Shown here: positions 15,186 to 61,311 of the stretch, one piece after another
Position numbering within the stretch: position 1 is the first letter of the stretch
How the letters are laid out: every line of letters starts with the position of its first letter
Program-made: the position numbers and the translations under genes
Assembly: GCA_027460525.1 (NCBI GenBank)
Contig: JAPZAS010000024.1
Span: 62,001-126,000, forward strand
Origin: Candidatus Methanoperedens sp.
GTDB taxonomy: Archaea; Halobacteriota; Methanosarcinia; Methanosarcinales; Methanoperedenaceae
Reading direction: 5' to 3'
DNA: 64,000 nucleotides
Notes under the pieces: model-generated
What the model was told of the DNA's origin: nothing
Database searches by the model: none
Seen by the model: only the letters and a program-made list of their open reading frames with translations

Positions 15186-15836
15186 AAAAGTAAGAGCCTG
15201 ATATAACGCCTACCACCACTTCATGCTCTCCCTGAACCTCGCCGTCTTCTCCCCCGACTCCGGCTTCCTGAACACGTACAGGTGCTCATGCCCTATCAGG
15301 TAAAAATCGTACTTCTTCCCGAACCACTTCTCCCTTGTGCTCTTCATCTTCCACTGCAGCTTGATGATATCCTCCCTCAGAATGAACCCTGCCTCAAGGA
15401 AGCTCATCAGCACCCGCGGCGTGATGGGCACGAAATGCTTGCTGCGCCTTGTATCACCTATCAGGACGGTGCAGTGCTTTCCGGGCTTGAGCACGCGCAT
15501 GCACTCACTAGCCACACGCCGCATCTCCTGCTCGAACTCGGCGATGTTGTGCACGCTCGACAGGTCGCCCTCGCGGTTGTGCGAGTACGGGATGATGCTG
15601 GCATAGGGAGGATGGGTAGCGATAAGGTCAATGGATTCGCTCTCAATCAGGTCAAGCGACCGCGCATCCCCGACATACGTCTTAATCTCCGGCGCTCGAT
15701 AATCAGCATCCAGAGGCGCATAAGCGAAATCCAGCCTGTTGCGCGCCACCATGACAGCGTCGGGATTGATGTCCACACCCGCGGCGCGCCTGCCCAGAAG
15801 CTTGCATTCCACAAGCGTTGTGCCTGAGCCCACCAT

Positions 15837-15916
15837 CCCGAGTCGCGCCTCGGGAGGGCGCAGACACGTATGCCCCGCAGGCATACGTGGATTCCCGCTC
15901 CCGAAGGGTAATCGGG
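15837..15916. repeat. Composite palindromic module inserted in methyltransferase copy 1
   Basis: Absent from the paralogous copy at 17521, where the flanks join directly. It consists of CCCGAGTCGCGCCTCGGGAG (a hairpin also found, inverted, at 61240), the hairpin CACGTATGCC-loop-GGCATACGTG shared with 24712, 24895, 28899 and 28945, and CCCGCTCCCGAAGGGTAATCGGG. Length 80 bp is not a multiple of three, so it also shifts the frame. Confidence 0.75.
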
Positions 15917-16894: not shown

Positions 16895-17795
16895 TTACCA
16901 CCACCTCATACTCTCCCTGAACCTCGCCGTCTTCTCCCCCGCATCCGGCTTCCTGAACACATACAGGTGCTCATGCCCGATGAGATAGAAGTCATACTTT
17001 TTCCCGAACCACTTTTCCCTTGTGCTCTTCATCTTCCACTGCAGCTTGATGATATCCTCGCGCAGGATGAACCCGGCTTCGAGGAAGCTCATCAGCACCC
17101 GCGGCGTGATGGGCACGAAATGCTTGCTGCGCCGTGTATCGCCAATGAGGACGGCGCAGTGCTTTCCGGGCCTGAGGACGCGCATGCACTCACTGGCCAC
17201 ACCGCCGCATCTCCTGCTCGAACTCGGCGATGCTGTGCACGCTTGAGAGGTCGCCCTGGCGGTCGTGGGAATAAGGGATGATGCTGGCGTAGGGCGGATG
17301 GGTAGCGATGAGGTCAATGGATTCATTCTCTATCAGGTCAAGTGAGCGCGCATCTCCCGCGTATGTCCTGATTTCCGGTACTTTATACTCGGCATCCAGC
17401 GGTGTATAGGCGAAATCCAGCCTGTTGCGCGCCACCATGACAGCATCGGGATTGATGTCCACGCCCACGGCGCGCCGTCCCAGGAGCTTGCATTCCACAA
17501 GCGTGGTGCCAGACCCCGCCATCTGGTCGAGCACAAGTTCTCCCGGCGCCGTGTAGCGAAGAATGAGGTTGCGCGGGATGTATGGCGACCAATTGCCCCT
17601 GTAATTCCCTACGTGCGTTGCCCAGTCGCCGCGGTCGGGGAAGCTCCAGACCGTGGTGGTTTCTGGGGTGAAGGTGGAGGGGGCGAATTTTGAGAGCTTC
17701 CACTTCTGCTGGAGTTTTATTGTTGTTTCTCCGATTTCGACTTCCGAATGGGATTGGAGGAATTGTTTGTAGTCGGTCCTTGTGATTTCGCGCAA
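16895..17795 (-). pseudogene. DNA methyltransferase, copy 2 (single-base frameshift)
   Basis: A class of site-specific DNA methyltransferase of about 300 aa. The N-terminal ORF (17190-17795) holds WSFPDRGDWATHVGNYRGNW, MAGSGTTLVECK (motif I) and ATHPPYASIIPYS (motif IV). The C-terminal ORF (16895-17200) starts ASECMRVLRPGKHCAVLIGD. Compared with copy 1, one extra C near 17202 (CCACACC versus CCACAC) breaks the frame after EMRR. Without it the protein is full length, so this could be a true mutation or a sequencing error. High GC compared with the AT-rich block that follows. Confidence 0.82.
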
Positions 17796-31390: not shown

Positions 31391-31798
31391 ATGGCTTACA
31401 CCAAAATACAGATTTCGGCAGATTCGGGCGCAGAAGAAATTGCCCCGTTCGCCATGGCAGTGCATGAACTCCTGGGGCTTCCCGTGACCATGAGGAGCCT
31501 GAATAAAAAAGGCGTCAGGATAGAAAAAGGGAAAATCCTTGATAATAATTACACCGGTCCTGTTCTAGAGCAGGTTTTAAAGGAGAATAAGACCATACGT
31601 CTCATACCCACAAGCGGTAAGTATACCGGTATTCCTGTGATTGTGGTGCCTATTAGGAACGGGGAAGGATACGGCATCGCTGCCATAGGCGTTGTTGATG
31701 TGGTAGGCACCGTGGATCTGGGGCTTGTCTTTGGCGATTTTCCAGACGTGGTAAAGCAGGTGCATGAGTGCGTAAAGGCGCGCGTGACGGCTCCTTGA
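31391..31798 (+). CDS. DUF2111 family protein
   Basis: A 135-aa protein recognised as the methanogen-restricted DUF2111 family: APFAMAVHELLGLPVTMRSL, LDNNYTGPVLEQVL and a Gly/Val-rich end GIAAIGVVDVVGTVDLG. Function unknown. GAGG precedes the ATG. Its TGA stop is the first base triplet of the palindromic module that starts the tandem array at 31801. Confidence 0.8.
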   Translation: MAYTKIQISADSGAEEIAPFAMAVHELLGLPVTMRSLNKKGVRIEKGKILDNNYTGPVLEQVLKENKTIRLIPTSGKYTGIPVIVVPIRNGEGYGIAAIGVVDVVGTVDLGLVFGDFPDVVKQVHECVKARVTAP

Positions 31799-31800
31799 AA

Positions 31801-32120
31801 AACTTTAAGAAAGTTTTATCAAAACGAAGGGGACGAACTTTAAGAAAGTTTTATCAAAACAAGAAGGACTGAACTTTAAGAAAGTTTTATCAAAACAAGA
31901 AGAACTGAACTTTAAGAAAGTTTTATCAAAACAAGAAGAACTGAACTTTAAGAAAGTTTTATCAAAACAAGAAGGACTGAACTTTAAGAAAGTTTTATCA
32001 AAACAAGAAGGACTGAACTTTAAGAAAGTTTTATCAAAACAAGAAGGACTGAACTTTAAGAGAGTTTTATCAAAACGAGGGGGACTGAACTTTAAGAAAG
32101 TTTTATCAAAAAGAGGGGAA
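31801..32120 (+). repeat. Nine tandem 36-bp units of the AACTTT palindromic module
   Basis: Units begin at 31801, 31836, 31872, 31908, 31944, 31980, 32016, 32052 and 32088; the first is 35 bp, the others 36. Each starts with the hairpin AACTTTAAGAAAGTT followed by TTATCAAAAC and AAGAAGGACTG-like spacer. Read in frame 3 the unit encodes NFKKVLSKQEGL, and the frame continues into the acetyltransferase. Confidence 0.9.
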
Positions 32121-32561
32121 CCGCAGATCTGCCTTGCAAAGAAGGAGGATTTTGACGAGATTTGGAGTCTTGAGGAGATATGTTTTAAAGAGGAAACATT
32201 CAACAAAAAGCAGTTAAGATATCTTTTCTTTAAAGCCAAGTCCACTGTTCTTGTTGCTTTGATGGAAGGCAAGCTCATCGGGTCAGTCATTATTTTATTG
32301 AGAAATCATATCGCCAATGCCAGGATATATTCATTGAACGTGCATCCTGCGTACAGGCGCGCTGGTGTTGGAAGCTTGCTTATGGATACAGCCCTGAAAA
32401 TTTTAGAAGAAAAGGGGTTTAAGAAGATAACCCTTGAGGTGGGGATTAATAACAACGCAGCTCAGAACCTGTACAGGTCGAAAGGCTTTATCATGGATAA
32501 AATTCTCTATAATTATTATAAAAGCGGCGATGATGCGTTCCATCTTGTCAGAAAATTATGA
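31809..32561 (+). CDS. GNAT acetyltransferase with repeat-encoded N-terminus
   Basis: The core (from about 32124) is a RimI-like N-acetyltransferase: ICLAKKEDFDEIWSLEEICF, YSLNVHPAYRRAGVGSLLMDTAL (acetyl-CoA loop RRAGVG) and NAAQNLYRSKGF. The frame has no ATG, GTG or TTG between the stop at 31806 and 32256-32259, although the fold clearly begins earlier. TTG at 31795 would start it in frame if repeat unit 1 had 36 instead of 35 bp. So either the gene is frameshifted in unit 1, or it uses an unusual start. ATG 32259 would remove the first part of the fold. Confidence 0.7.
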   Translation, partial: ESFIKTKGTNFKKVLSKQEGLNFKKVLSKQEELNFKKVLSKQEELNFKKVLSKQEGLNFKKVLSKQEGLNFKKVLSKQEGLNFKRVLSKRGGLNFKKVLSKRGEPQICLAKKEDFDEIWSLEEICFKEETFNKKQLRYLFFKAKSTVLVALMEGKLIGSVIILLRNHIANARIYSLNVHPAYRRAGVGSLLMDTALKILEEKGFKKITLEVGINNNAAQNLYRSKGFIMDKILYNYYKSGDDAFHLVRKL

Positions 32562-34998: not shown

Positions 34999-35185
34999 TG
35001 AACATTAACAGCGAACTAATACGAACTCGTACGAACTCCGAGGGCGTGAGTTCGTAAAGCGACACCTCGCTTTATGAGATATAGGGTATGCAAAGCATAC
35101 CCCGCGTTTGATGGAACTTTTCCAAAGTTCCTTGATAAACCTTTTTCAAAGGTTTTTGATAAAACTTTCCTAAAGTTTTCAGTTC
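34999..35185 (-). repeat. Palindromic array related to the one at 61.1 kb
   Basis: In the gap before flpA (34883-35279, no ORF supported). Read on the minus strand, 35180 to 35054 gives hairpins AACTTTAGGAAAGTT, ACCTTTGAAAAAGGT, AACTTTGGAAAAGTTCC, GGGTATGCTTTGCATACCC and ATAAAGCGAGGTGTCGCTTTAC. Three of them occur in the same order and orientation at 61103-61172. The side at 34999-35035 is the AGTTCGTACGAGTTCGTATTAG spacer seen in the island. Confidence 0.8.
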
Positions 35186-44216: not shown

Positions 44217-46058
44217 TTACGTTGTGGATACTGCCACCGACTGGGCTCCGAGTACTTTGCCGCTGCCATCCACTAATTGAAGTGTGATCCTGTTCTTTAC
44301 AAGATCCAGCGATATGGGATGCGTTGGTGTCACGAACACTACAAAGGTGGGCTGAGCGCCCGAGTTGATGGTCAATCCAGTAGCTGGACCTATGATGGCT
44401 CCTGTTGCTGGATTGGTCTGGTTTACCTGAACTACCAGCCCACTTATCGAAGACGGTACGATCACATTGAAGCTTACACCAGTTGCATTGGCTCCGCCGA
44501 CATTCGTAGTTGCTACTGCAAATACAGTAGGTGTATTAACTGCTGTACTTACATCCAGCGAGGTTGACATCATGATAATATCAGCAGAGGGCACTGTGCT
44601 TGCTGATATGGTCAATGTGTTTACTCCACTTATCGGAGCAGTTGCTCCATTGGTGCTGGACACATTAAACGTCAATGGCGAGGTATCAAACGCTGATGTT
44701 GCATTGATGCCAACCACAAAGTTGGCTGTGCCGCCTGCTGATATGTTCACCGGTGCATTTAGTGCCTCTATGAACGCAGTGCCGTTCCATTGCCGAAATT
44801 GTGTGTTTACAGGCAAGCTGGATGCCTGTGTTATACTCACGCCAGTCGCAGTTCCTGTTCCGCCGTTGATCACTGACATGAATATCGTCACTGGCGTGCC
44901 TACCTGTGCATTCCTGCTGTTCGGGGTTATGGAAGATACCAGTAATGGCGTCGGTGTTGGTGTTGGAGTCGGTGCCGGAGTGGGTGTGATAGCTGCTTTG
45001 TATGCAAGCGGAAAGTAGTCAGTATTGTTCGCATCAAGGACATAAGGAGAGTCGCATATTCCATCGCCATTGTTATCTGCGCAGGTCTGGCTGAAGCCTG
45101 TGCCGCCTGGGTTTGCCCAGACGTTGCCGCCAAGGTATGCCCCTCCTATGATGTTGGTGCCTATTATTTTGGTGGCGTTCCAGTAGTTAGGAGAATCTGG
45201 AAATGCGTTGCCATAAAAGTATGCGCTGATATAACTGTTATTGGTATTGTAAAAAAAGTTGTTATAAATACTATTGTTGGTGGAACCGCTGAGGTATATT
45301 CCATAGTTGCTGTTCCAGTTTGCGGTGTTGCTAATTAGGGTGTTGTTATTACTGGTAAATGGAGTGCCGATAGCGAAAGCTAAGTCAATGCGGATTCCAA
45401 CGCCGTTCGAGTTTGCGGTGTTATTAGTTAGGGTATTGCTGCTGGAACCGCCGATAGAGATTCCACCGCTATTCGAGTTTGCAGTGTTGCTAGTTAGGAC
45501 GTTGTTGCTGCTAAGATAGAGGTCTATTCCACCGTTATTCGAATTTGCGGTGTTGTTAGTTAAGGTATTGTTGCTGGAGGCGAGGAGGTATATTCCAGAG
45601 TTGCTATTCGAATTTATGGTGTTGTTAGTTAAGGTGTTGTTGCTGGAACTGCGGATGTATATTCCATAGTAGTCCGAGTTTGTGGTGTTGTTAATTATAC
45701 TTCCATTTAGTGCGTTAGTGTAAAATATGCCAGTATCCCATTCAGTTACTATCAAATTTTTAACAGTTACATTTGTGAGGTTATAAACAAAGACGCCGGC
45801 GGTGTCTGCAGCATCCACTCCATCAATAGTATAGCCAGCGCCGTCAAAAATAACGTTACTTGAAGTGATATTAATGCAAGTATTGGTCGTGCTGTTTACT
45901 ATGTCCTGGGTGAGCACATAAGTACCCTGCGAGGAAATCGTAGTGCATGCGTCTATTGGCGTTGCCGCCCCCGCTCCACCCGCCAGCAATAATACCAGCG
46001 CCGTTATCCCAACCGCAATCCTGGGGGCACGCCCTCCGTGTATGCTATTCAATACCAT
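44217..46058 (-). CDS. Secreted NosD-like beta-helix surface protein, paralogue 1
   Basis: A 613-aa exported protein. Signal peptide: GGRAPRIAVGITALVLLLAGG. Residues from about 50 to 290 form a right-handed beta helix of NosD/pectate-lyase type, seen as repeats SSNNTLTNNTANSN and SGIYL. A Cys pair (TCADNNGDGICDSPY) marks the end of the helix. A TPTP linker then leads to two CARDB-like repeats (NAQVGTPVTIFMSVINGG). It ends GAQSVAVSTT without an anchor. GGTGG precedes the ATG. Last gene of a three-gene minus-strand operon (7-nt gap). Confidence 0.85.
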   Translation of the reverse strand: MVLNSIHGGRAPRIAVGITALVLLLAGGAGAATPIDACTTISSQGTYVLTQDIVNSTTNTCINITSSNVIFDGAGYTIDGVDAADTAGVFVYNLTNVTVKNLIVTEWDTGIFYTNALNGSIINNTTNSDYYGIYIRSSSNNTLTNNTINSNSNSGIYLLASSNNTLTNNTANSNNGGIDLYLSSNNVLTSNTANSNSGGISIGGSSSNTLTNNTANSNGVGIRIDLAFAIGTPFTSNNNTLISNTANWNSNYGIYLSGSTNNSIYNNFFYNTNNSYISAYFYGNAFPDSPNYWNATKIIGTNIIGGAYLGGNVWANPGGTGFSQTCADNNGDGICDSPYVLDANNTDYFPLAYKAAITPTPAPTPTPTPTPLLVSSITPNSRNAQVGTPVTIFMSVINGGTGTATGVSITQASSLPVNTQFRQWNGTAFIEALNAPVNISAGGTANFVVGINATSAFDTSPLTFNVSSTNGATAPISGVNTLTISASTVPSADIIMMSTSLDVSTAVNTPTVFAVATTNVGGANATGVSFNVIVPSSISGLVVQVNQTNPATGAIIGPATGLTINSGAQPTFVVFVTPTHPISLDLVKNRITLQLVDGSGKVLGAQSVAVSTT

Positions 46059-46065
46059 TTTCCAC

Positions 46066-48753
46066 CTACGTCGTTGATACCGCCACCGATTGTGCTCCGA
46101 TTATCTTCCCGCTGCCATCTTTCAATTGAAGCGTAATCCTGTTGTTTGCAGGGTCGTTGGCTATCGGCTGCATTGGCGTTACGAACACTGCAAAGGTCGG
46201 AGTAGCGCCCACGTTAATGGTCAAACCTGCTGCTGGACCCTTGATCGTTCCGTTTGCTGGATAGGTTTCATTTACATGATAAGATAATCCGCTTATCGAA
46301 GTCGGCACGCTCAAGACCAAGCTTACACCAGTTGCATTGGCTCCGCCGACATTCGTAGTTGCTACTGCAAATACAGTAGGTGTATTAACTGCTGTACTTA
46401 CATCCAGCGAGGTTGACATCATGATAATATCAGCAGAGGGCACCGTACTTGCTGAGAGGGTCAGCGTATTTACTCCACTTATCGGAGCAGTTGCCTCGTT
46501 GGTGCTGGACACGTTGAATGTCAGTGAAGAACTATTAAACGCTGATGTTGCATTGATGCCAACCACAAAGTTGGCTGTGCCGCCTGCTGATATGTTCACC
46601 GGTGCATTTAGTGCCTCTATGAACGCAGTGCCGTTCCATTGCCGAACTTGTGTTTTTACAGGCAAGCTGGATGCCTGTGTTATGCTCACGTTAGTAGCTG
46701 TTGCCGATCCGCCGTTAATCACTGACATGAATATCGTCACTGGTGTGCCTACCTGTGCATTCCTGCAGTTTGGCGTTATGGAAGTTACCAGTAATGGCAT
46801 AGGTGTGATATTTGAAGGGTATGCAAGCGGCAGGTAGTCGATGTTATTTGCGTCAAGCGTGTATGTTGAATCGCAAATCCCATCGCTATTGCTATCAGCG
46901 CATGTCTGACTGAAGCCTGTACCGTTCGGATAAGCCCAGATGTTGCCGCCTATGTAGGAGCCACCGATGATGTTTATGCCTGGAGTTTTGGTCGTGTTCC
47001 AGTTGTTGCTGCCGCCGCCGACACCAAAATTGTTGGTATTGTTGAAAAAGTTGTTATAAATGATGTTGTTGTTGCTGGAATCGTCCAGCAAGATACCGTG
47101 GCCGTTGTTCGAGGCACTGTTCCCAATAAATGTGTTGCTGTTGGAATTTAACAACCAGAAGCCACTACCAACATAAAAGAAGAATCGCCAGAGGAAGTTT
47201 GAGTTAGCAATGTTTCCGTTTAGCGTGTTATTAATGGAATCATAGAGAGCGATACCGTTGACGTTGTTCGAGGCATCGTTATCACTCAGCCTGTTGTTAG
47301 TGGAAGAGGAAAGAGAGATTCCATCACCATTCGAACTTGCAGTGTTATTGGTTAAAGTGTTGTTGCTGGAAGTAGAAAGATAGATTCCATAGCTGTTCGG
47401 ACTTGCAGTGTTATTGGTTAAAGTGTTGTTGCTGGAATATTTGAGATGGATTCCATAGTAGTTCGAGCTTGCAGTGTTGTTTATAACATTGTTGTTTTCA
47501 GAATATCCCAGCAATAAACCATCCCTATTGTTATTTAAGGTCACATTTTGTATATTTGAGTTGCTGGTATTCCAGAAAAGAACTCCTGGATAATTATTCA
47601 TAAATGTGCTGTCTTTCAGAGTGATGTCATTACAGTTAATGCAGCCAAACCAGCCTGCATTTGTGCTCAGGTCATATGTTACCCCAGAAGCCCCTATTAT
47701 ATAGTAAACAGGTTTTCCATTCACAGTATTCGAAGTATCAATGCTCTGAATGAAATGAGAATCTGTTGATCCATCTATATTGAAATTCAATGGGTTTCCC
47801 TTCATGTTGTTTCCTGAAAGGCTGCTATTGCTGGAAGAGTCAAGCTTGATGCCGTAGTTTCCGTTGTTTGAGGCATTGTTTCCAATCAGTGTGTTATTGC
47901 TGGAAGATGAAAGAATGATACCGGTACCATCATTATCGATGTTGCCTCCTTGGTTTCCGTTGTTCGAGGCATTGTTTCCAATCAGTGTGTTATTGCTGGA
48001 AGATGAAAGAGTAATGCCAGTACCATCATCAGGATGGAATTGGTGGAGGTTGTTCGAGGCAATGTTGCCGTTTAGCATGTTATTATTGGAATTGTAGAGA
48101 CCGATGCCGAAGGGGTTGTTTGAGACATTGTTTCCAATCAATGTGTTGTTGCTGGAAGAGTTAAGATAGATGCCATAAGAGAGATAGATATAATAGCTAT
48201 TGCTCGAAGCAGTGTTGTTGCTCAGCATGTTGCTGCTGGAAAAGTCCAGATAGATGCCATAGCTATTGTTTGAAGCAGTGTTGTTGCTCAGCGTGTTGTT
48301 GCTGGAAGAATACAGCCAGAAGCCGATCAGGTTGTTAGATGCAATGTTGCTTTTGATTATATTATTGTTCGATATTAATTTAATTCCATTATATAAATGG
48401 CTGCCTGTTTTTGCATTAAATCCATCAATTATAACTCCATTAGCAGTTACAGTTATTGCATCCCCAAGTCCTGCAGTATTAATCACAGGCAATCCGCCTC
48501 CGCTATCCTGCCCCTTCAACTCCAATTGTTTGTTTACAGTCACCGTTTCATAATACGTTCCGCTGTAAACAAGAATGGTATCCCCGGCACTCGCCGCATT
48601 TATTGCCTTTTGTATGCTCGTATAATTTGCACCACCGCTGGCATTGACTGTCAGCGTCGCAGCACCAGCGCCACCCGGCAGGAGTAAGACCAGCGCCGTT
48701 ATTCCCACCGCAATCCCGAGAGCACGCCCTCCGTGTATGCTATTCAATACCAT
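46066..48753 (-). CDS. Secreted NosD-like beta-helix surface protein, paralogue 2
   Basis: The longest of the set, 895 aa. After the signal peptide (GGRALGIAVGITALVLLLPGG) comes a pectate-lyase-like opening (GGANYTSIQKAINAASAGDTIL) that the other paralogues lack. About 20 coils with the motif SSNNTLIGNNASNNG follow. Then come the CADSNSDGICDSTY loop and two CARDB-like repeats. Nearly identical 3' domain with paralogue 1 (SADIIMMSTSLDVSTAVNTP), showing recent duplication or gene conversion. 8-nt gap to the upstream gene. Confidence 0.85.
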   Translation of the reverse strand: MVLNSIHGGRALGIAVGITALVLLLPGGAGAATLTVNASGGANYTSIQKAINAASAGDTILVYSGTYYETVTVNKQLELKGQDSGGGLPVINTAGLGDAITVTANGVIIDGFNAKTGSHLYNGIKLISNNNIIKSNIASNNLIGFWLYSSSNNTLSNNTASNNSYGIYLDFSSSNMLSNNTASSNSYYIYLSYGIYLNSSSNNTLIGNNVSNNPFGIGLYNSNNNMLNGNIASNNLHQFHPDDGTGITLSSSSNNTLIGNNASNNGNQGGNIDNDGTGIILSSSSNNTLIGNNASNNGNYGIKLDSSSNSSLSGNNMKGNPLNFNIDGSTDSHFIQSIDTSNTVNGKPVYYIIGASGVTYDLSTNAGWFGCINCNDITLKDSTFMNNYPGVLFWNTSNSNIQNVTLNNNRDGLLLGYSENNNVINNTASSNYYGIHLKYSSNNTLTNNTASPNSYGIYLSTSSNNTLTNNTASSNGDGISLSSSTNNRLSDNDASNNVNGIALYDSINNTLNGNIANSNFLWRFFFYVGSGFWLLNSNSNTFIGNSASNNGHGILLDDSSNNNIIYNNFFNNTNNFGVGGGSNNWNTTKTPGINIIGGSYIGGNIWAYPNGTGFSQTCADSNSDGICDSTYTLDANNIDYLPLAYPSNITPMPLLVTSITPNCRNAQVGTPVTIFMSVINGGSATATNVSITQASSLPVKTQVRQWNGTAFIEALNAPVNISAGGTANFVVGINATSAFNSSSLTFNVSSTNEATAPISGVNTLTLSASTVPSADIIMMSTSLDVSTAVNTPTVFAVATTNVGGANATGVSLVLSVPTSISGLSYHVNETYPANGTIKGPAAGLTINVGATPTFAVFVTPMQPIANDPANNRITLQLKDGSGKIIGAQSVAVSTT

Positions 48754-48761
48754 TTTTCCAC

Positions 48762-50744
48762 CTATGTCGTTGATACCGCCACTGACTGCGCTCCGATTAT
48801 CTTCCCGCTGCCATCCATGAGTTCTAGTATTATCCTGTTGTTTGCTGGATCGAAGGCTATCGGGTGCGTTGGTGTCAGGAACACGGCAAAAGTCGGCTGA
48901 TCGCCAGCGTTGATGGTCAACTCAATTGCCGGACCGATGATTGCTCCGGTTGTTGGATTGGTTTGGTTCACCTGAATTGCCAATCCTGTCATCGAATCCG
49001 GTACGACCACATTAAAGCTTACATTGGTTGCATTTACTGCCCCCACATTTGTAGTAGCCACTGCAAAGGCTGTAGGTGTCTTAACTGGTGTACTCACGTT
49101 CAGTGATGTGGATTCCATCACGACATCGGCATAAGGTGTGACAGTTCCTGAGATTGTCAATGCGTTAACTCCGTTTATAGGCGCAGTTGCCCCGTTGGTG
49201 CTGGAAACGTTGAATGTCATTGGCGAACTTGGAAACAATGCCGTTACATCGATAGTTAATACAAAGTGAACTGTTTCTCCTCCAATTATATTCACTGGCG
49301 TGTCAGGCACACCTGTGAATGTTTTGCTTCCATCCCATGGCTGGTAGTGTATTATTGCAGGCAGATTGGAGGCTTGTGAGATACTCACGTTGGTTGCAGT
49401 TGCTGTTCCGCCATTGATAATTGACAGGTATAAAGTAATAGGCACGCCTATCTGCGCAATTCTACTATTTGGGCTTGTGGCGAAGACTAAGTCCAGGGCA
49501 GGTGCTAGCGGCAGGTAATCAATATTGCTACTATAGAGCGTATATGGCAAATCGCATATCCCATCTCCATCCGCATCGGTGCAGGTCTGGCTAAAGCCTG
49601 TGCCGCTTGGGTTCGCCCAGAAATTGCCGCCGAGGTAGGGGCCACCGACGATGTTTGTACCTGATGTTTTAGTTGTGTTCCATTTGTTTGGAGCGTCGGT
49701 ATAAGCATTATTGTAGTTGTTGAAGATGTTGTTTGAAATGGCATTGTTGGAACCACCCAGATAGATGCCAGCGCGGAAGTTCTGGTTTGCAGTGTTATTG
49801 GTTAGGATGTTGTTGCTGGAATACGCCAGATCAATGCCGTATACGTTCCCGTTAGCAGTGTTGCCGCTCAGAGTGTTGTTGCTGGAATACTCTATACCAA
49901 TGCCATCGCCCCACCACCTCGAGGACTCTACAACGCCGTTTGAGTTTGCAGTGTTATTAATTAGGATATTGTTGCTGGAAGAACTTAGATAGATGCCGGT
50001 GCTGCCGCTCAGGGTATTGTTATTAAAGTAGAAGCTGATGCCATACCTGTTCGAGTTAGCAGTGTTGCCGCTCAGAGTGTTGTTGCTGGAAGAACCCAGA
50101 TAGATGCCGTAATTCTCGTTCGAGTTAGCAGTGTTGCCGCTCAAAGTGTTGTTGCTGGAAGAACCCAGATAAATGCCGTATACGTTGTTCGAGGCACTGT
50201 TGCCGCTAAGCGTGTTGTTGCTGGAATACTCTATATCAATGCCATCGCCCCACCACATCGCGGTCGCGAAGCTTACAATGCCGTTCGAGTTTGCAGTGTT
50301 ATTAATTAGGATAGTGTTGCTGGAAGAATTTAGATAAATGCCGTATATGTTGTTCGAGGCATTGTTGCCGCTCAGCGTGTTGTTGCTGGAAGAGGCCAGA
50401 TAGATGCCGGAGGAAAAGTTCCTGACATTCGTATTCTTTATCGTGACGCCGTTTCTTCCTGAAAGATAAATCCCGTTCCCTGTATAGTTGCTTCCCGCTA
50501 TTGTATGACCATTGCCGTTAAGGGTTATGCCGTCGCTATCTATCTCTATTGTTGCGGTTAAATCAGTTGTCAGCGTGCAGATCTTCGATGCGGCATTCCA
50601 CGTACCAATAGAGGTGCAGTCCCCGCCTGTTGCATTGTCGTTGATGAACCGCGCGCTCGCCCCTCCCGCCAACAGCAACACCAGCGCCGTTATTCCCACC
50701 GAAATCCTGAGGGCACGCCCTCCGCACGTTTTATTCCCAGCCAT
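48762..50744 (-). CDS. Secreted NosD-like beta-helix surface protein, paralogue 3
   Basis: A 660-aa exported protein and first gene of the operon. Signal peptide GGRALRISVGITALVLLLAGG. DSDGITLNGNGHTIAGSNYTGNGIYLSG opens the beta helix, whose coils read SSSNNTLSGNTANSN. The Asp-Gly loop CTDADGDGICDLPY has the same form as in the other two. The CARDB-like repeats are more diverged (NSRIAQIGVPITLYLSIIN). Sequons for N-glycosylation are very frequent. Probably part of the cell envelope or matrix; binding target unknown. Confidence 0.85.
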   Translation of the reverse strand: MAGNKTCGGRALRISVGITALVLLLAGGASARFINDNATGGDCTSIGTWNAASKICTLTTDLTATIEIDSDGITLNGNGHTIAGSNYTGNGIYLSGRNGVTIKNTNVRNFSSGIYLASSSNNTLSGNNASNNIYGIYLNSSSNTILINNTANSNGIVSFATAMWWGDGIDIEYSSNNTLSGNSASNNVYGIYLGSSSNNTLSGNTANSNENYGIYLGSSSNNTLSGNTANSNRYGISFYFNNNTLSGSTGIYLSSSSNNILINNTANSNGVVESSRWWGDGIGIEYSSNNTLSGNTANGNVYGIDLAYSSNNILTNNTANQNFRAGIYLGGSNNAISNNIFNNYNNAYTDAPNKWNTTKTSGTNIVGGPYLGGNFWANPSGTGFSQTCTDADGDGICDLPYTLYSSNIDYLPLAPALDLVFATSPNSRIAQIGVPITLYLSIINGGTATATNVSISQASNLPAIIHYQPWDGSKTFTGVPDTPVNIIGGETVHFVLTIDVTALFPSSPMTFNVSSTNGATAPINGVNALTISGTVTPYADVVMESTSLNVSTPVKTPTAFAVATTNVGAVNATNVSFNVVVPDSMTGLAIQVNQTNPTTGAIIGPAIELTINAGDQPTFAVFLTPTHPIAFDPANNRIILELMDGSGKIIGAQSVAVSTT

Positions 50745-55633: not shown

Positions 55634-56770
55634 TTGAGTATCATGAGTCCGGTATCTGTTATAATCCCCTGCATGAACGAGGAAAAAACAATCGGGGCCG
55701 TCATTAGTAAAGCTAAATCGACCTTAATGCAGGAGGGACTGGAAGGGGAAATAATAGTATCAGATAATTCCACAGATAATTCAAGGGATATCGCCAGAAA
55801 GATGGGAGCTAAAATTATAATTCCTCAAAAAAACGGATACGGTAGCGCCTACTTGGAAGGTATCAGGCATGCTAAAGGAACATATCTTATACTGGCTGAT
55901 GCCGACGATACCTACGACCTGAAAGAGATGCCCGGGTTATTAAAACCCCTGCTTTCAGGCGAAGCCGACTTCGTCATGGGCACACGGTTGAAGGGGGAAA
56001 TCAAGAAAAACTCCATGCCCTGGCTGCACAGGTACATCGGGAATCCTTTGTTGACAGGAACCCTGAACTGGCTTTTTAAAACAAAATTGAGCGACGCCCA
56101 TTGCGGTATGCGCGCCATAACAAGAGACGCTTATGAAAAGCTTGATATGAAAAGCGAAGGGATGGAATTTGCAAGCGAAATGATAATTGAAGCTGCAAAG
56201 AAAAAACTTCGAATAACCGAAGTACCTATCACCTATTATCCAAGACAAACACCTTCCAAGCTCCACTCCTGGGGCGATGGATGGCGGCATCTGCGCTTCA
56301 TGATGCTTTATAATCCAACCCCCTTTTTCTACTTTCCGGGTTTATTATTATTCGCACTCGGCGCATTTATGACCCTTGCCCTGCGGCTGCGGGGCAATGT
56401 GGAGATAACCGGACTCCATTCCTTCATTCTGGGCAGCATGCTTGCGATAATAGGAACGCAGATGATAGCTACGGGCAGTTATATGAAAGTTTACGGAATA
56501 ATTCATAATAAAATAGAGAAAGACGGATTGACCGCAAAAATCCTGGATTATCATTCTCTTGAACTCGGGCTTGTGCTCGGGTTATTATTGTTCTTCGCAG
56601 GGATAGTTTTAGGTTCAAATATTCTCTTCAAATGGATCTCCTCAGGATATGGTTCCCTTTCAGAAGTGGGAAATGCAGTAATCTCCATGGTGCTCGCTGC
56701 GCTCGGCATCCAGATAATCTTTTCAGCGCTCATTATCAGCATTTTTATGTTAGAAAAAAAGGATACATGA
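55634..56770 (+). CDS. Glycosyltransferase family 2, dolichol-phosphate-sugar synthase-like
   Basis: A 378-aa protein with an N-terminal GT-A domain: VSVIIPCMNEEKTIGAVI, VSDNSTDNSRDIARKMGAKI and LILADADDTYDL (DxD). SDAHCGMRAITRDAYEKL follows. From residue 240 on it has four hydrophobic helices. It most likely charges dolichol phosphate with a sugar for AglB. Its TGA stop is part of the ATGA that begins the 23-bp palindromic micro-ORF. Confidence 0.88.
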   Translation: MSIMSPVSVIIPCMNEEKTIGAVISKAKSTLMQEGLEGEIIVSDNSTDNSRDIARKMGAKIIIPQKNGYGSAYLEGIRHAKGTYLILADADDTYDLKEMPGLLKPLLSGEADFVMGTRLKGEIKKNSMPWLHRYIGNPLLTGTLNWLFKTKLSDAHCGMRAITRDAYEKLDMKSEGMEFASEMIIEAAKKKLRITEVPITYYPRQTPSKLHSWGDGWRHLRFMMLYNPTPFFYFPGLLLFALGAFMTLALRLRGNVEITGLHSFILGSMLAIIGTQMIATGSYMKVYGIIHNKIEKDGLTAKILDYHSLELGLVLGLLLFFAGIVLGSNILFKWISSGYGSLSEVGNAVISMVLAALGIQIIFSALIISIFMLEKKDT

Positions 56771-56793
56771 AAAACTTTAGGAAAGTTTTATGA
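56767..56793 (+). other. 8-codon micro-ORF formed by a single palindromic module between ATGA overlaps
   Basis: ATGA at 56767 contains the stop of the upstream gene, and ATGA at 56790 the start of the next. Between them is the perfect palindrome AAAACTTTAGGAAAGTTTT (8-bp arms, 3-bp loop). Reading from the first ATG gives MKNFRKVL and a stop at 56791-56793. Removing the 19-bp palindrome and one ATGA restores a plain 4-bp overlap of the two glycosyltransferase genes. Confidence 0.8.
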
Positions 56794-60034: not shown

Positions 60035-61099
60035 ATGAAAGCTTTAATATTAAGCGGCGGCAAAGGAACTCGACTGCGACCTTTAACCTTCACCACAGCG
60101 AAGCAACTTATTCCCGTGGCTAATAAACCTATTCTTGGTTATGTCCTCGACCAAACATCCCAGGCGGGAATAAAGGATACAGGTATAATAATTGCACCTG
60201 AGACAGGTGAATATGTCAAAGACTACGTAAAAGATGGCTCTCCGTGGGGAATAAAAGTTACATATATGCCTCAAGAACCTCTTGGTCTGGCTCATGCTGT
60301 AAAAACTGCGAGAAATTTCCTGGGAAACGAATCATTCGTAATGTGCCTGGGGGATAACCTTCTCGGAAAAGGGATAAATAATCTTGTGGATAAATTTAAC
60401 CTGGAAAAACTGGACGCTTTGATATTACTCAAAGAAGTTGAAAATCCAGGCAGTTTCGGGGTAGCGGTATTAGATAAAAAAGGAAATGTCATCAAACTCA
60501 TAGAAAAACCAAAAGAACCCCCCAGTAATTTAGCATTGGTGGGGGTGTATATATTTTCTCCAAGAATCCACGAAGCTATTGAGAGAATAAAACCTTCATT
60601 GCGCAATGAACTTGAGATTACGGATGCCATACAGGAATTAATCAATATGGGATGCAATGTTAAAAGCGAGATTCTCAACTCCTGGTGGCTTGATACAGGG
60701 AAAAAGGATGATATTTTAACAGCAAACAGTATCGTTCTGGATGAATATGTTAAAAATGAAATAAATGGGAGCCTGGATAATAAAAGTAAAGTTACAGGAA
60801 GGATAAAAATCGACACGGGTACCGTTGTTGTAAACAGCAGAATCCGCGGTCCTGTAGCGATAGGTAAGAACGCTCATATTGAGAACTCCTTCATAGGACC
60901 GTATACCAGTATAGGAGATAATACTAATATTTCCGATTCATCCATTGAACATTGTGTCATTCTCAATAACGTTCAGGTCAAAGGAATAGAGAGGCTGGAG
61001 GACAGTTTACTTGGAAAGGATGCAAAAGTTTTAAAAAACCATACCGGTCATAAAGCACTTAGATTGATGATAGGGGATTATTCGGAGATAGAGGTATGA
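60035..61099 (+). CDS. rmlA: Glucose-1-phosphate thymidylyltransferase, archaeal long form
   Basis: A 354-aa nucleotidyltransferase: LILSGGKGTRLRPLTFTTAKQL (nucleotide loop), FVMCLGDNLLGKG, LVGVYIFSPRIHEAIERIKPS and SWWLDTGKKDDIL. The C-terminal 100 residues form a left-handed beta helix (NSRIRGPVAIGKNAHIENS), as in the long RmlA/RfbA of archaea and actinobacteria. It makes dTDP-glucose, the first step to dTDP-L-rhamnose. Its stop lies in the ATGA at the start of the palindromic bridge. Confidence 0.92.
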   Translation: MKALILSGGKGTRLRPLTFTTAKQLIPVANKPILGYVLDQTSQAGIKDTGIIIAPETGEYVKDYVKDGSPWGIKVTYMPQEPLGLAHAVKTARNFLGNESFVMCLGDNLLGKGINNLVDKFNLEKLDALILLKEVENPGSFGVAVLDKKGNVIKLIEKPKEPPSNLALVGVYIFSPRIHEAIERIKPSLRNELEITDAIQELINMGCNVKSEILNSWWLDTGKKDDILTANSIVLDEYVKNEINGSLDNKSKVTGRIKIDTGTVVVNSRIRGPVAIGKNAHIENSFIGPYTSIGDNTNISDSSIEHCVILNNVQVKGIERLEDSLLGKDAKVLKNHTGHKALRLMIGDYSEIEV

Positions 61100-61311
61100 A
61101 AAACTTTAAGAAAGTTTTATCAAGGAACTTTGGAAAAGTTCCATCAAACGCGGGGTATGCTTTGCATACCCCAACACAGCGTGAACCGATGTTTCGGTTC
61201 TCAAACGACGGGTATGGCACGCCATACCCGAACACGCCCTCCCGAGGCGTGACTCGGGAAGGGGTATGCGCCATACCCCTATACGTCATAAAGGGGCGTA
61301 ACCCTTTATGA
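61096..61311 (+). other. Stop-free array of palindromic modules bridging rmlA and rmlC
   Basis: A 216-bp stretch from the ATGA at 61096 to the ATGA at 61308. It is made of at least seven hairpins in a row: AACTTTAAGAAAGTT, AACTTTGGAAAAGTT, GGGGTATGCTTTGCATACCC, GAACCGATGTTTCGGTTC, GGGTATGGCACGCCATACCC, CCTCCCGAGGCGTGACTCGG, GGGGTATGCGCCATACCCC and CATAAAGG..CCTTTATG. Yet one frame stays open for 71 codons (MKNFKKVLSRNFGKV ...) and overlaps both flanking genes by 4 nt. The peptide has no known domain. I treat it as a repeat that keeps translational coupling, not as a normal gene. Confidence 0.8.

Follow-up and report, generated by a model that had tools for sequence, protein, structure and literature searches.

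Probable fusion and tandem expansion of a dispersed palindromic element at the N-terminus of an acetyltransferase gene in Candidatus Methanoperedens

A short palindromic sequence that is dispersed through a Candidatus Methanoperedens chromosome has probably been fused, as a single head copy, to the N-terminus of a GNAT acetyltransferase and then expanded to nine units in this species. We base this reading on the copy series found at the same gene junction in related genomes and on the in-frame joins of the inserts to GNAT. The window (the whole 64-kb stretch of DNA analyzed) belongs to the genome here referred to as G000.

Repeat Array Between DUF2111 and GNAT

Tandem Repeats Finder (TRF) reported a period-36 array at 31801-32111 (8.7 copies, 96% matches), and nine tandem units fill 31801-32123 between a DUF2111 gene and a GNAT domain. 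The features of the locus are as follows.

31391..31798, plus strand: DUF2111 gene (PF09884), the upstream partner; its TGA (31796-31798) overlaps TTG 31795-31797
31768..31770, plus strand: GTG, candidate GNAT start, in the same frame as TTG 31795, with AGGTG (31758-31762) just upstream, six to ten bases ahead
31795..31797, plus strand: TTG, candidate GNAT start that forms TTGA together with the DUF2111 stop; insertion junction
31801..31835, plus strand: unit 1, 35 bp, with one base fewer than the other units; reading from either candidate start loses the frame here
31836..32123, plus strand: units 2-9, 36 bp (12 codons) each, consensus NFKKVLSKQEGL, in one frame with GNAT
31869..31872, plus strand: CTGA at the border of units 2 and 3; TGA closes the frameshifted ORF from TTG 31795, CTG lies in the GNAT frame, putative restart
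32124..32561, plus strand: GNAT acetyltransferase domain (PF00583, E 2.7e-20) and stop, intact

A preliminary description of this DNA had noted that eight of the nine units measure exactly 36 bp, that the array begins at the stop of the upstream gene and that it continues the GNAT frame. All three observations were confirmed: unit 1 is the exception in length, the array starts two bases past the DUF2111 TGA (the core also lies at upstream stops at 56.77 and 61.10 kb), and the frame is open from 31809 to 32558 into the PF00583 match. Each unit consists of a 24-base head (AACTTTAAGAAAGTTTTATCAAAA), kept in all nine units with one base different in unit 8, and a 12-base linker that varies among units (CAAGAAGGACTG, CAAGAAGAACTG, CGAGGGGGACTG, AGAGGGGAACCG) and has 11 bases in unit 1. 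The 24-base core matched 14 times in the window at up to 3 mismatches, 9 of them inside the array, whereas 100 shuffled versions of the window yielded none, so the array is not a product of chance. Among 31 genomes of the genus, the 36-base tandem pattern was found in G000 alone, where all 7 matches fall in the array.

Translated in the GNAT frame, units 2-9 read NFKKVLSKQEGL with variants. The repeat tract comprises 104 residues with a computed pI of 10.3 and a charge of about +18, and the predicted product carries a basic, probably disordered extension of about 100 residues. The preliminary description called the tract a tail, but it is an N-terminal extension to the GNAT domain. A single-sequence AlphaFold model gave the array a pLDDT of 25-31, to be read beside a GNAT part that likewise stayed below 75. 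Since the nine open copies are the openness of one unit copied, they should be read with caution and not as nine independent facts.

The array might also, though this is unlikely, serve a regulatory purpose in DNA or RNA, as a set of protein-binding repeats or hairpins, with a coding frame that is incidental. The fixed 36-bp spacing, the palindromic head and a minus-strand frame that is likewise open over the array (31805-32290) would all agree with such a role. However, internal units fold no better than shuffled sequences (z 0.35 and 0.23, the former for the repeated 36-base unit), an Rfam search of the 64-kb window returned tRNAs only, with no match at the array, and the inserts of relatives differ in sequence and number yet remain multiples of 3. 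Unit 1 together with its TTGA flank does tend to fold as a palindrome (z −1.78; 12 of 200 shuffles were equally good), and the head hairpin is weaker within the array owing to the loss of the TTGA flank. This weakening would fit retention of the repeat as coding sequence better than as structure. Comparison with shuffles ruled out an RNA hairpin array for the internal units. The earlier idea of a palindromic module expanded to nine copies is kept as to its source, the dispersed head, and given up as to the palindromic folding of the internal units.

Start Codons at the GNAT Junction

In relatives within the genus, GNAT directly follows DUF2111, and the DUF2111 TGA overlaps an NTG codon in the GNAT frame. 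This overlapping codon is TTG in 19, GTG in 2 and CTG in 4 of the 25 named loci that have DUF2111, and the position nine codons upstream is start-like in all 25 (17 ATG, 7 GTG, 1 TTG). After the overlap codon the GNAT of relatives begins with MKPxIRxAKKED or a similar sequence. Four loci (L160, L162, L163 and L165) carry CTG at the DUF2111 stop and an in-frame ATG upstream, an arrangement which suggests a GNAT start inside DUF2111, perhaps genus-wide. In the window, a ribosome starting from either GTG 31768 or TTG 31795 would enter the array in one and the same frame, and use of the in-frame ATG 32262 would remove the N-terminal part of the GNAT domain. GNAT itself is under purifying selection (dN 0.111, dS 0.571 against G042).

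The insertion point lies just past TTGAAA, within the gene. A normal GNAT start in homologues, combined with a lack of transcription across the array, had been named in advance as telling against an array read into the protein. The first half of this applies, as such starts do occur at this spot, but they lie upstream of the insertion, so that in three relatives the array is inside the gene and not ahead of it.

Copy Number Among Relatives

A close GNAT match was present in 28 genomes of the genus and was not found in G043, G045 and G046. The DUF2111-GNAT junction was, by our reading of the loci, present in 27; G040 (L233), where GNAT has another upstream context, and L143, where no DUF2111 was found, were excluded from the 25- and 27-locus junction counts. 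No repeat is present at 23 of the 27 loci, and across Methanoperedens genomes the junction carries 0, 1, 1.33, 2 or 9 units. The isolate nzgw23 (G041, L141) has one unit, MKNFKNFSSKRGGPKIRPAKKEE, in an insert of 33 nt. In G042, the closest relative (80% identity in GNAT), a single 36-base unit, likewise ending in CTG, is joined by 12 bases belonging to a second one, MKNFTKVLPKRGELNFKKEPQIRPAKRED; this insert measures 51 nt. The isolate STD1_6 (G001, L142) carries two units, MKNFKVLSKRKEKFKNFSSKQGEPQIRHAK, of which the first lacks three bases, in an insert of 63 nt. Both isolate names were assigned through equal sequence and contig positions, and the three insert lengths were counted from translations. 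All three inserts are multiples of 3, stop-free and in frame with GNAT; the in-frame claim concerns these three relatives.

In a tree of DUF2111 and GNAT, the window grouped with G042 (98/98) and the four carriers did not group together. Forced grouping of the carriers was not rejected (p-AU 0.247 with four, 0.315 with three), and a single ancestral insertion in all four would be plausible.

A Dispersed Element at Stop/Start Junctions

The element from which the head derives is a short mosaic of palindromic modules, beginning with the head ATGAAAAACTTTnnnAAAGTTTTATCAAAA and present in several dozen copies in the Methanoperedens chromosome of the window. The head tends to lie precisely on an NTGA in which the stop of one gene and the start of the next overlap. 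The head pattern had 64 matches in G000 at up to 3 mismatches, against 0 for the reversed control. A longer head pattern was patchy in the genus, matching in 19 of 31 genomes, with 23 to 45 matches in seven of them (G000, G001, G006, G010, G016, G041 and G044) and from 0 to 9 in each remaining genome. Three copies in the window outside the array illustrate the range of forms.

56767..56793, plus strand: minimal copy, ORF MKNFRKVL between two glycosyltransferase-like genes (named by eye), with a 4-base overlap with both
61096..61311, plus strand: full element, 71-residue ORF, with a 4-base overlap with the stop of the 60035-61099 gene and with the ATG of the 61308-61787 gene
35052..35177, minus strand: further element, head at 35154-35177, its end module reaching about 35052, without an observed stop/start overlap

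We read 33 head sites in G000, of which 30 were loci elsewhere and 3 lay in the window. In 12 of the 33, the stop codon of an upstream ORF (50 codons or longer) coincides with the NTGA or TAA of the head, and in 19 a stop falls within about 14 bases of the head; as a control, 12 of 103 ATGAAA sites in the window, some of which are themselves element sites, lie at an upstream stop (Fisher p 0.002). With no upstream ORF stop near the head at the remaining 14 sites, the preference for junctions is strong but not a rule.

From a start at the head, a small ORF (MKNFKKVLSK...) runs through the modules, e.g., MKNFRKVLSKTVASVYTAHTYGFAIRGFIKRGVAL, and often ends on a TGA that overlaps the next ATG. The exact −4 overlap with the downstream ATG was found at 11 of 18 sites in G000, with a 6-base gap in 3 more, and at 12 of 14 distinct sites in G001, where 30 of 39 head matches were sampled. 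These denominators, counted by hand, include sites where the head carries a start-like codon (ATG, in one case ATA) and a downstream ATG was found; sites lacking either were excluded, as were head matches that were internal or on the opposite strand. At nearly all of the included sites, both alternative forward frames are closed, at 4 and 14 bases.

Mosaic elements between overlapping genes, with all modules in one open ORF, were observed at L087, L088, L105, L107 and L109 as well as at 56767-56793 and 61096-61311 in the window. Such sites in G000 and G001 show the 4-base overlap downstream and often on both sides. Two loci on contigs C35 and C36 of G000 (L106 and L108) hold two chained elements: the ATGA closing the first is also where the second head begins, which looks as though ATGA might serve as a target.

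Empty ATGA junctions were found in relatives at two element sites other than GNAT. Ahead of a reductase, a ferredoxin-like gene (by eye) ends in relatives in an empty junction reading ...GTTAAATGAAAAA or similar, and a head was flagged in 1 of 29 loci, that of the window genome. At a polyprenyl synthase site (by eye), the sequence ...TTATGATTGAAGAA, or one like it, runs on without interruption in 7 of 28 loci, and several of the remaining loci contain worn-down remnants. ATGA is present once in empty sites and at both element ends at the GGR site, and it may be part of the element itself. Upstream of the polyprenyl synthase gene, L210 and L219-L221 carry short head remnants. In some of these an AGGAGG- or GGGGAGG-like stretch directly precedes the ATG, which might mean that the insert is turning into a ribosome-binding spacer.

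No transposase was identified for the element. Y1_Tnp (PF01797) was considered as its mover and rejected: its matches did not correlate with head number, G016 has 41 heads and no match, and G000 holds one weak, stop-containing PF01797 piece. The exact head was not found in viral contigs, so a viral or Borg-like source was not seen.

The Broken Frame in Unit 1

The insert in the window measures 320 nt; one more base would make it a multiple of 3. With unit 1 one base short, the protein is not readable, as assembled, from either candidate start: reading from GTG 31768 or TTG 31795 leaves the GNAT frame in unit 1 and ends at TGA 31870-31872. The preliminary description had the missing base and the broken frame right, but TTG 31795 is not the only start affected, as GTG 31768 lies in the same frame.

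The frameshift may be real and recent, so that the expanded array disabled GNAT here and is now untranslated DNA, a reading that we regard as possible but fall short of favoring. It accords with the assembled length and with the early stop reached from both starts, as well as with the lack of any ATG, GTG or TTG in the GNAT frame from 31809 to 32258. The missing base, a T flanked by C and G, lies outside any homopolymer. On the other hand, the GNAT frame is otherwise undamaged with a low dN/dS, yet a recent loss would leave an equally low ratio, and all three other carriers have kept the frame. No more and no less tentatively, the base may be missing through an assembly or read error, in which case unit 1 would truly be 36 bp and a protein with about 107 extra residues before GNAT would be made. 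Unit 1 is the sole unit off length, the inserts of relatives are in frame, and nine-unit arrays of near-identical 36-mers are difficult to assemble, but a T lost between C and G is atypical of a homopolymer slip. We give these two readings equal weight.

A third reading would make the frameshift harmless: the short frameshifted ORF would be read to TGA 31870-31872, with reinitiation at CTG 31869. The overlap is exact and in the correct frame, 4 of 25 relatives have CTG as the codon that overlaps their DUF2111 stop, and stop/start overlaps are described as driving termination-reinitiation in archaea (PMC6728339). Those four loci, however, are explained by a better start, an ATG nine codons upstream, and do not show CTG initiation; we no longer count them in favor of CTGA restarts. 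CTG initiates poorly, and since CTGA stands by construction at the end of each unit, the overlap needs no explaining. A restart at CTGA is therefore possible but weak, and we consider it improbable.

The earlier proposal of a mobile palindrome expanded in frame into a protein finds agreement in the capture and expansion at this locus and in the three smaller arrays that are in frame; it does not extend to the window copy as assembled, which is unreadable from either start.

Proposed History of the Array

Fusion of a head copy to the GNAT N-terminus, with later expansion, probably came about as follows. Dispersed copies lie at stop/start junctions with an ORF open between the neighbors, and the element ORFs may keep termination-reinitiation going between them, a process reported for pairs of overlapping Haloferax genes (PMC6728339). 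Where DUF2111 meets GNAT (TTGA), a head copy would have stayed without the far end of the element, either in an ancestor or separately in close relatives. At this one locus the head ORF, lacking the end modules, is fused in frame to GNAT in the three relatives, as a predicted N-terminal extension of 11-21 residues, and the repeat number differs among the carriers, from 1 to 9. In the species of the window, the 24-base head with its 12-base linker was most likely multiplied to nine by unequal recombination or slippage. Multiples of 3 would be tolerated because GNAT stays in frame, and selection on the conserved GNAT may have removed frame-breaking lengths.

A broader proposal, for and against which we would put even weight, is that a family of small mobile elements in Methanoperedens specifically settles on stop/start overlaps. 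The modular ORF of the element would restore both 4-base overlaps, so that coupling survives insertion; after loss of the far end, the ORF would become a new N-terminus expandable in 36-base steps, with GNAT as the case that displays the successive copy numbers. If true, this would be a route for mobile DNA into operons without breaking translation. Several steps of new protein sequence made from such an element would then be preserved at the GNAT junction in living relatives, and the path of insertion, fusion and expansion is testable.

Other Features of the Window

Two similar DNA-methyltransferase-like ORFs (by eye) lie at 15210-15884 and 16895-17795, the second split by a frame change, and look like a duplicated, decaying gene. 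Three large adjacent ORFs with tandem repeats of 66-69 bases occupy 44217-50744, looking by eye like parallel beta-helix surface proteins.

Comparison With Known Systems

Rickettsia palindromic elements (RPE) and other MITE-ORF fusions are described as short dispersed palindromic DNA in frame within protein genes (PMC10969869, PMC2229807). The likeness to RPE, an in-frame insertion in a protein gene, is found in the three relatives and not in the window as assembled. As described, RPE measure about 150 bp and lie within ORFs of unrelated genes, whereas GNAT has the head alone, tandemly expanded, and many of the dispersed copies here lie at gene junctions (stop/start overlaps) with their own ORF between two genes. 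PARCEL, palindrome-containing DNA that encodes protein repeats of variable number, has a unit of 25 residues (75 nt) and is reported as absent from archaea in PMC2996958, compared with 12 residues (36 nt) here. REP elements are characterized as dispersed palindromes outside ORFs (PMC12306157); in contrast, the ORF of the present element is open between its neighbors and overlaps their codons, and no link to a Y1 transposase was seen.

The tandem repeats of Borgs (aaTR) are described as units divisible by three in ORFs, encoding disordered tracts and accompanied by partial flanking repeats (PMC9879509). Methanoperedens is the host genus of Borgs, eight of the nine units here are 36 bp, and G042 carries a 12-base partial second unit. 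The array is not Borg-borne, however, as the window has housekeeping genes and lies on a 131-kb contig of a 99% complete genome. It is thus chromosomal, where PMC9879509 reports tandem repeats to be virtually absent, and its unit comes from a dispersed element, whereas Borg units are given there as virtually all unique.

In-frame palindromic elements, palindrome-coding tandem repeats and Borg tandem protein repeats are already known. Our literature searches, at the level of their listings, returned no paper joining Methanoperedens, palindromic, repeat and intergenic, and none on elements at stop/start overlaps. Within the literature searched, the stop/start-junction element that feeds the array appears to be new, and it is the more novel part of these observations, ahead of the array itself.
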